IMG/VR virus record: IMGVR_UViG_3300030102_006092
Span: 1 to 21,395 of that record
From: a virus
Length of the DNA: 21,395 nt
Direction: 5' to 3' (one strand)
In this document: in pieces, positions 18,096-20,887 of the stretch
Layout: every line of letters begins with the position of its first letter
Numbering within the stretch: position 1 is the first letter of the stretch
Translations under genes and position numbers: made by a program
Notes under the pieces: generated by a model
The model's database searches: none
Told to the model about the DNA's origin: nothing
What the model saw: the letters and a program-made list of their open reading frames with translations, nothing else

Positions 18096-18124
18096 TTGAC
18101 CTGGTTTTTGTTATGCGTTATACT
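18096..18124 (+). promoter_or_regulatory. psbA upstream promoter 1
   Basis: TTGACC (18096-18101), a 17-bp spacer, TATACT (18119-18124). The GGGG before the -35 box is shared with the promoter at 10688. Confidence 0.7.
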
Positions 18125-18143: not shown

Positions 18144-18172
18144 TTGACAAAACTCAAGATCTGGTATATACT
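18144..18172 (+). promoter_or_regulatory. psbA upstream promoter 2
   Basis: TTGACA (18144-18149), a 17-bp spacer, TATACT (18167-18172). Predicted start is about 18179, giving a leader of about 160 nt. It lies 48 bp downstream of promoter 1. Confidence 0.75.
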
Positions 18173-18186
18173 AAATAGATCAACGA

Positions 18187-18201
18187 GTTACGAAATGTAA
18201 C
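18187..18201. promoter_or_regulatory. Dyad GTTAC-N5-GTAAC in the psbA leader
   Basis: A perfect inverted repeat just downstream of the predicted start site. The same half-site occurs in the hli promoter dyad (9577-9602) and, in altered form, before the porin-like gene (about 10756-10769). Confidence 0.4.
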
Positions 18202-18219
18202 AATTTCCAACTTGGTGTA

Positions 18220-18263
18220 ACACGCCTTACCAGGACTAAACAGCGTGTATAAACAACAGTCCT
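18220..18263 (+). other. Candidate pseudoknot in the psbA 5' leader
   Basis: ACACGC (18220-18225) pairs with GCGTGT (18243-18248). AGGACT (18232-18237), inside that loop, pairs with AGTCCT (18258-18263). The crossing order is that of an H-type pseudoknot with 6-, 5- and 9-nt loops. CTTGGT (18211-18216) can instead pair with ACCAGG (18229-18234, one wobble), giving an exclusive alternative. Confidence 0.45.
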
Positions 18264-18268
18264 TCATA

Positions 18269-18291
18269 CCAACTCTGGAGGGTAGAGTTGG
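18269..18291 (+). other. psbA leader hairpin with purine-rich loop
   Basis: CCAACTCT (18269-18276) and AGAGTTGG (18284-18291) form a perfect 8-bp stem with loop GGAGGGT, which resembles a Shine-Dalgarno sequence but lies about 50 nt before the ATG. Confidence 0.6.
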
Positions 18292-18340
18292 AATATTCTA
18301 ACTTGTGTTCCCCGCACTTATACATAACCCTTTTTCAAAA

Positions 18341-19417: not shown

Positions 19418-19440
19418 TATAAAAACTGAATACTTTTCAA

Positions 19441-19467
19441 GGGGGGTCTTCGGGCCCCTTTTGTTTT
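19441..19467 (+). terminator. psbA terminator with UUCG tetraloop
   Basis: A GGGGTC arm (19443-19448) pairs with GGCCCC (19453-19458, one G-T pair) around the stable loop C-TTCG-G, followed by TTTTGTTTT. It separates psbA from psbD, though readthrough is possible since psbD has no obvious promoter. Confidence 0.85.
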
Positions 19468-19505: not shown

Positions 19506-20561
19506 ATGGTTGCATCTACATTACAACCAACAAAAAGGGGATGGTTCGATGTCCTTGATGACTGGCTTAAACGGGATCGCTTTGTCTTTGTGGGCTGGTC
19601 TGGACTATTACTTTTTCCCACTGCTTATCTTGCCATTGGTGGTTGGCTTACTGGGACAACTTTTGTTACGTCTTGGTACACCCACGGCCTTGCTAGTTCC
19701 TATCTTGAGGGTGCTAACTTTCTTACAGCAGCTGTCTCGACGCCTGCTGATGCTATGGGTCATTCTCTTCTTCTACTTTGGGGTCCTGAAGCTCAGGGAG
19801 ATTTCGTCCGTTGGTGCCAACTTGGAGGGCTTTGGGCCTTTGTTGCTCTCCACGGTGCGTTCGCTCTAATTGGTTTCATGCTCCGTCAGTTTGAAATTGC
19901 ACGTCTCGTCGGAATCCGTCCTTACAATGCTATTGCTTTCTCTGGTCCTATTGCTGTTTTTGTCAGCGTCTTTCTCATATATCCTCTGGGACAGTCGTCC
20001 TGGTTCTTCGCGCCATCGTTTGGGGTTGCGGCTATTTTCCGCTTCCTACTTTTCCTACAAGGTTTCCACAATTGGACGCTTAATCCGTTCCACATGATGG
20101 GAGTCGCAGGTATCTTGGGTGGTGCATTGTTGTGTGCAATCCATGGTGCTACTGTAGAAAACACGCTGTTTGAAGATGGCGAACAAGCAAATACTTTCAA
20201 AGCTTTTGAACCTACGCAAGAGGAGGAAACTTACTCGATGGTTACTGCGAACCGTTTCTGGTCTCAGATCTTTGGTATTGCGTTCAGTAATAAGAGGTGG
20301 TTACACTTCTTTATGTTGTTTGTTCCTGTTATGGGTCTTTGGACAAGTTCCATCGGTATTATTGGTCTTGCTCTCAACCTTCGTGCTTATGACTTTGTAT
20401 CCCAAGAGATCAGAGCAGCAGAAGATCCAGAGTTTGAAACCTTCTACACAAAGAACATTCTTCTAAATGAAGGTCTCCGTGCTTGGATGGCACCTGCCGA
20501 CCAACCACATGAGAACTTTGTGTTCCCAGAAGAAGTCCTTCCTAGAGGTAACGCTTTGTGA
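19506..20561 (+). CDS. psbD: Photosystem II reaction centre protein D2
   Basis: The 351-residue product is complete D2, one residue shorter than the common 352. [20 protein letters not shown] opens the conserved part. Five membrane helices are visible, with TyrD in [11 protein letters not shown] (Y159 here, 160 in standard numbering), the chlorophyll/iron His in LNPFHMMG and [10 protein letters not shown], and an intact C-terminus ending [13 protein letters not shown]2 pairs with D1 in the PSII core. An AAAGG sequence about 12 nt before the ATG is the only ribosome-site candidate. The psbA terminator lies in the 88-bp gap, so expression may depend on readthrough or an unseen promoter. Confidence 0.99.
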
Positions 20562-20596: not shown

Positions 20597-20887
20597 ATGT
20601 CCTTCATCGTAACTTTCAAAACCTCTGAGGGTGAGTTTACTTTCCCCTGTGAACCTGATCAGTATATTCTAGATGCTGCAGATGAAGCAGGTGTGGACGG
20701 TCCTTATTCATGTCGTGCTGGTGCCTGTTCTACTTGTGCTGGAAAGATAGAAAGTGGTACTGTTAATCAAGAAGATCAATCTTTCTTAGATGATGATCAA
20801 ATTGAAGCAGGTTTTCTTCTTACTTGCGTGTCATACCCTACGAGCGATGTTGTTATCGCCGCTGAAAAAGAGGAGGAACTCTATTAA
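20597..20887 (+). CDS. petF: Plant-type [2Fe-2S] ferredoxin
   Basis: The 96-residue product has the ferredoxin cluster motif CRAGACSTC (Cys39, 44, 47) and the fourth ligand Cys77 in LLTCVSYP, with the usual length of 95-99. The acidic end AAEKEEELY and [11 protein letters not shown] are typical of the surface that binds partner reductases. Ferredoxin carries electrons from photosystem I to NADP reductase, nitrite reduction, bilin reductases or ribonucleotide-related enzymes. Cyanophage copies probably feed phage metabolism such as bilin synthesis or nucleotide supply. Its stop overlaps the next ATG by one base. Confidence 0.98.

Follow-up and report, generated by a model that had tools for sequence, protein, structure and literature searches.

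A PhotoRC-II leader with a compensated pseudoknot upstream of psbA in a T4-like cyanophage genome fragment

The leader of the marine phage psbA gene described here is a real folded RNA belonging to PhotoRC-II, a known family without a demonstrated function. Comparison with related leaders shows that it folds into an H-type pseudoknot made of a first stem (P1) and a crossing stem, which is followed by two hairpins, P3 with an AGGG loop and then P4 with a CCC loop. Its likeliest role is that of a cis-acting mRNA module which would serve psbA translation initiation and/or mRNA stability. The window, i.e. the whole stretch of 21,395 nucleotides that was analysed, is a fragment of a Synechococcus-type, T4-like cyanophage genome. 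The features of its psbA region are as follows.

18144-18172, plus strand: sigma-70 type promoter; TTGACA (18144-18149), 17 nt, TATACT (18167-18172), 11 of 12 consensus positions
18184-18214, plus strand: P0 hairpin at the 5' end of the transcript, from the fold; outer CGAGTT/AACTTG, inner GAAAT/ATTTC
18208-18304, plus strand: match to PhotoRC-II (Rfam RF01717)
18220-18225 / 18243-18248, plus strand: P1, first pseudoknot stem, ACACGC/GCGTGT
18229-18231, plus strand: unpaired ACC of loop 1
18232-18237 / 18258-18263, plus strand: crossing stem, AGGACT/AGTCCT, the sixth pair not conserved
18269-18276 / 18284-18291, plus strand: P3 hairpin of 8 bp, CCAACTCT / AGAGTTGG, loop GGAGGGT at 18277-18283
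18305-18308 / 18314-18317, plus strand: P4 hairpin, loop TCCCC
18319-18340, plus strand: unstructured, nearly G-free stretch of about 22 nt before the start codon
18341-19417, plus strand: psbA (photosystem II D1), without a Shine-Dalgarno sequence of at least 4 nt near the ATG
19438-19463, plus strand: intrinsic terminator 3' of psbA, 11 pairs and then a T run
19506-20561: psbD, the next gene after psbA
20597-20887: ferredoxin gene after psbD, which gives the order psbA, psbD, ferredoxin

Family membership and the sample of related leaders

The leader matches the whole PhotoRC-II model (positions 1-96) with 57.4 bits (E 1.3e-7) and thus passes the curated gathering score of 39 bits at full length. 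In the window no Rfam family but RF01717 exceeds its threshold: PhotoRC-I (RF01716) gives no match there, and none of the pseudoknot riboswitch families of Rfam (preQ1, SAM-II and others) reaches its threshold. Both helices of the RF01717 model (P1 and the hairpin P3) are formed by the window sequence, and they covary among its relatives. The closest psbA leaders belong to Synechococcus phages, which fits the range of PhotoRC-II (cyanophages and marine sequences), and at E 0.001 the model has no hits in 14 control genomes. In all 12 isolate genomes the element is found exactly once, immediately upstream of psbA. Phage psbA sustains the work of photosystem II in infected cells and is among the most widespread viral metabolic genes at sea; an RNA that is present once per genome and only before this gene is a plausible control point. 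The element itself is already known, so that no new family is at issue: PhotoRC-II was described in 2010 as a cis element upstream of psbA (Weinberg et al., 2010, PMC2864571), its cis-regulatory action on this gene being solely a prediction in the literature (PMC2864571, PMC9602691), and in later cyanophage work the cis-element annotation is applied untested (PMC9602691).

The leaders used for comparison were gathered by D1 similarity, by motif patterns and from 12 named isolates, and the set was reduced to 167 non-redundant psbA leaders; 58 of them were aligned with plain MAFFT, which is blind to structure, the alignment beginning at 18213. The filter applied to the leaders required ACC and the purine-rich start of the 5' strand of the crossing stem, and one of the collecting patterns fixed this 5' strand as AGGAC, the 3' strand being left free in both cases. 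In bacterial genome contigs a P3-loop pattern gave scattered matches in unrelated bacteria and archaea, which we read as chance, and another P3 pattern, run on viral contigs, likewise appeared to give mostly chance matches. Some psbA annotations in other phages deserve a remark. In ACG-2014d and S-B43 psbA is annotated to begin some 100 nt within the gene, possibly by an annotation error in both, and in S-B43 the annotated frame also extends far past the usual end of D1. In Synechococcus phage S-SRM01 (NC_070963.1, 207387-209498) the psbA match is split, and a homing endonuclease gene is annotated within it.

The promoter layout of the window is common to 142 of the 167 related leaders (the spacer being 17 in 135 of them), and the transcript should start near 18179, which agrees with the interval, 18179-18340, taken as the leader in the earlier note. 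A second promoter-like site, TTGACC-17-TATACT, is located in the window at 18096-18124, some 48 nt further upstream. The P0 region, for which GTTAC/GTAAC is an alternative pairing, has a mean fold energy of -8.3 in the 167 leaders as against -4.3 (sd 2.5) in shuffled letters.

Pseudoknot and hairpins

Taken alone, the sequence of the leader proves little, as 16 of 500 dinucleotide-shuffled versions of 18179-18340 also contain two crossing stems of 6 Watson-Crick pairs with short loops, i.e. about 3% by chance, and the stability of the overall nested fold is unremarkable (z -1.23). We therefore regard the comparison across relatives as decisive for the reality of the crossing stems. The earlier note had proposed these two stems at precisely the coordinates listed above and had suggested looking for compensatory changes across cyanophage psbA leaders. 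Such changes are found for P1, for the crossing stem and for the hairpin with the GGAGGGT loop, and both crossing stems are kept by compensation.

The crossing stem, counted over 18232-18236/18259-18263, is paired in 166-167 of the 167 psbA leaders; at four of the five pairs both bases have changed. In the alignment of 58 leaders 97.9% of its cells are paired, as against 36-71% in slid controls, and double-changed cells number 29 versus 5.5 +/- 1.9 in shuffles; RNAalifold, left to itself, selects this stem over P1. Its versions are GAGAC/GTCTC, AGGAC/GTCCT, AAGAC/GTCTT, GAGAT/ATCTC, GAGGC/GCCTC, GGGAT/ATCCC, GGGAC/GTCCC, and GGGGC/GCCCC. Mapped onto a D1 gene tree, the first pair shows 21 changes and the second 20, counts that are inflated by recombination of leaders among phages and do not represent independent mutations; one-sided changes never occur, and their absence, in spite of recombination, is in our opinion telling.

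P1 is carried by many differing versions of 5-7 bp across the 167 leaders (ACACGC/GCGTGT, ACACCC/GGGTGT, CCTGCC/GGCAGG, CTTCTG/CAGAAG and more). Its pair counts are low in the plain alignment because loop lengths differ, and therefore duplex swapping was used for this stem: over the 167 leaders the energy of the duplex is -9.3 kcal/mol with a leader's own strands and -5.9 kcal/mol with strands swapped between leaders. When P1, the crossing stem, P3, and P4 are taken jointly, the 58-leader alignment contains 276 double-changed cells versus 94.7 +/- 10.0. The unpaired ACC of loop 1 is invariant in the same 58 sequences, an invariance that is partly built in, since the selection of leaders partly required ACC or CC.

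The third pairing of the earlier note, a competing stem between CTTGGT (18211-18216) and ACCAGG (18229-18234), is present in the window, with one G-U pair, but is not conserved. With the inner four pairs counted, 29.7% of its cells are paired, the same as in shuffles, with no double changes, and the outcome is the same with all six pairs. We reject it as a mutually exclusive stem, so that of the structured leader envisaged in that note the pseudoknot and the hairpin stand and the competing stem falls.

The P3 hairpin, present as that note had described it (8 bp, GGAGGGT loop), shows strong covariation in relatives. The AGGG of its loop is constant and nearly invariant across the leaders, AGGG being also among the criteria by which leaders were chosen; the loop reads GGAGGG in 92 of the 167, and TGAGGG, TAAGGG, TTAGGG, CTAGGG and the like in the others. 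The distance from the P3 loop to the ATG is 59-68 nt in nearly all 167 leaders. P4 lies outside the Rfam model, which stops at 18304. It is weak in the window (4 bp, one G-U), most relatives having 5-6 bp, and its double-changed cells number 59 versus 27.6 +/- 4.6, among forms such as AGTGT/GCACT, TCCAG/CTGGA, GTCAC/GTGAC, GTTCAG/CTGAAC, and ACCATT/GATGGT; the CCC of its loop is almost invariant.

Several leaders depart from this arrangement. The Prochlorococcus phage P-SSM3 has the pseudoknot alone, without P3 and P4, and scores 37.2 bits, just under the Rfam threshold; the leaders of P-SSM4 and P-RSM3 are 98.5% identical to that of P-SSM3 over the stretch searched with BLAST. The viral contig L193 (1241-1500) also carries a pseudoknot without P3 and P4, a second apparent loss of both hairpins. 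That the pseudoknot is kept without the hairpins in P-SSM3 and L193 suggests a leader composed of two modules. In L183 (1317-1497), P3, P4, and the ACCC element are kept, and the upstream part is quite different (AGTCCCATCGGGTTCGACTCTAAACGCCC); it may be a pseudoknot whose stems have changed entirely.

After P4, the stretch before the ATG is mostly 19-25 nt long, contains 3.2% G and is unstructured in the 167 leaders. A Shine-Dalgarno sequence of at least 4 nt near the ATG is missing in 165 of the 167; since it is also missing in 35 of 36 psbA leaders that are not recognised as PhotoRC-II (a few of the 36 being variant members), its absence is no argument for the element and was dropped. An upstream open reading frame that would start after the G-rich loop and end at the psbA ATG was considered and rejected, a start codon being present in 82 of the 167 leaders and the stops being scattered.

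Loop contacts and candidate function

The AGGG of the P3 loop and the CCC of the P4 loop could kiss, as their complementarity suggests. The energy of the duplex between the two loops is -6.68 kcal/mol for a leader's own loops and -6.41 +/- 0.11 kcal/mol for swapped ones (4 of 500 as good), a weak test, in which both constant parts hardly vary and relatedness is ignored. The Watson-Crick run between the loops is 4.0 versus 3.4 with letter-shuffled P4 loops, and there is no difference in run length between own and swapped loops. Telling variants are P3 loop AGAGGGT with P4 loop GTCCCTCA, and GGAGGGT with ACCTCC. In L162 (1365-1491) and L165 (893-1019) the P4 loop CACCTCC, opposite a GGAGGGT P3 loop, equals the anti-Shine-Dalgarno core of 16S rRNA.

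A second C-rich sequence, ACCCTT (18327-18332), lies in the stretch before the ATG and is complementary to GAGGGT of the P3 loop, with which it is predicted to pair. A CCC/CTC element is present before the ATG in all 92 leaders with a GG-AGGG loop and in 15 of the 75 others, and on the D1 tree 21 of the 32 steps involve a joint change of loop and tail; block-wise swapping of leaders by recombination could also explain this association.

We tentatively favour, at somewhat less than an even chance, the view that the leader is a PhotoRC-II cis module acting on the initiation of psbA translation, a folded platform that would keep the landing site of the ribosome open. Translation in cis is favoured because the ATG spacing is fixed, the stretch before the ATG is open and G-free, and the element is restricted to psbA. 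The folded module stops some 20-25 nt short of the psbA ATG, and the open, G-free stretch that remains is of a size suitable for ribosome landing; the platform would hold this site open at a fixed distance from the ATG. The G-rich P3 loop would be either held by the C-rich P4 loop in a kissing contact or freed for other partners, which might be the ACCC element before the ATG (in the window's class of leaders) or the 30S subunit. Against a role of this module counts the fact that S-PM2 and many other psbA loci carry or express psbA without PhotoRC-II.

The main rival is protection of the mRNA, in which P0, the pseudoknot and the hairpins would shield the psbA mRNA of infected cells from decay that depends on the 5' end, initiation being unregulated; we judge it rather unlikely, though to be reckoned with. 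P0 lies where the transcript is predicted to begin and shows conservation of structure, and S-PM2 retains P0 in the absence of PhotoRC-II. The psbA leader of that phage shows a promoter and a P0-like inverted repeat only; the repeat, GTTAAGGAATC...ATTTCTTAAC (positions 212-255 of locus L574), follows the psbA promoter and resembles P0 of the PhotoRC-II phages. It is probably the 36-bp inverted repeat for which the authors who noted it suggest a role in mRNA stability (PMC5931967). On the other hand, stabilisers would not require the tight ATG spacing, and the conservation of the AGGG and CCC loops exceeds the needs of plain stems.

In the window's class of leaders, the two complementarities may be combined into a psbA-specific translation switch of the phage, composed of the pseudoknot platform and the G-rich hairpin loop. 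GGAGGGT would pair either with the P4 loop, in a kissing contact, or with ACCCTT, each C-rich partner excluding the other. We hold this unlikely.

A riboswitch or sensor, whose pseudoknot would bind a small molecule, an ion or a host protein and set psbA control by the state of the cell, possibly in connection with light, seems improbable. The H-type pseudoknot does have conserved unpaired bases (ACC in loop 1 and AA in loop 3), is separable from P3 and P4 in P-SSM3 and L193, and is specific to psbA. However, such bases are few, no other Rfam family reaches threshold, and Weinberg et al. judged a riboswitch probably not to be the case ('n' in their table, PMC2864571). Light, moreover, raises psbA where the element is lacking: in S-PM2d psbA is reported as the sole phage gene with a proportionate increase under high light, and is the single documented light-responsive phage gene that we found (PMC5931967), and the genomes of S-PM2 and S-PM2d contain no PhotoRC-II above chance (best score 17 bits, away from psbA). 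PhotoRC-II is therefore not needed for a light response at the transcript level, and experimenters should not presume that it is a light sensor; the light-, redox- or ribosome-linked control raised in the earlier note, including any light-dependent action on translation, is a conjecture.

Still less probable is a split ribosome-binding site, in which GGAGG of the P3 loop would be the Shine-Dalgarno sequence of psbA, brought to the ATG by P4 and folding. Split sites have been proposed for some T4 genes. GGAGG matches the cyanobacterial anti-Shine-Dalgarno sequence 5'-GAUCACCUCCUUU-3' (PMC6847405), and no other such sequence is near the ATG; nevertheless the P3 loop lies some 60 nt from the ATG, and its Shine-Dalgarno-like part is not conserved (GGAGG, as GGAGGG, in 92 of the 167 leaders, AGGG alone being constant), so that the loop is disfavoured as the main Shine-Dalgarno and does not conform to the T4 kind. 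Finally, a DNA-level element (a promoter or protein-binding repeats instead of an RNA), which the promoter directly upstream might bring to mind, is scarcely credible, as the element lies downstream of the predicted transcript start and compensatory changes, those of the crossing stem included, keep pairing rather than sequence.

Comparison with known systems

The H-type pseudoknot riboswitches preQ1-II and SAM-II share with the leader its topology and an A-rich third loop; the leader has no Rfam match to either of them. PhotoRC-I (RF01716), known from cyanobacteria and marine samples, likewise precedes psbA-type genes as a conserved RNA, but is of distinct structure (PMC2864571). The hairpin in the psbA 5'-UTR of S-PM2 (Puxty et al., 2018, PMC5931967) follows a sigma-70/late promoter of the same kind and appears equivalent to P0, whereas the leader of that phage is without the pseudoknot, P3, and P4.

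The closest system is PhotoRC-II itself (RF01717), to which the leader corresponds by the whole-model match, the position upstream of psbA, the occurrence in cyanophages and marine sequences, and the helices P1 and P3, which are the two of the model. The difference is that the crossing stem and P4 are both missing from the nested search model that Rfam displays. RF01717 is listed in the CaCoFold paper among families with covarying pairs absent from the database structure, and the crossing stem may already have been reported in that work (PMC7657543). The additions made here are P4, the ATG spacing and the complementarity of the P3 loop to the P4 loop and the tail, of which we found no published description in the literature searched. 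The refined fold, with its compensated crossing stem, a P4 outside the Rfam model and a fixed G-free stretch, provides specific testable mutants for the family.
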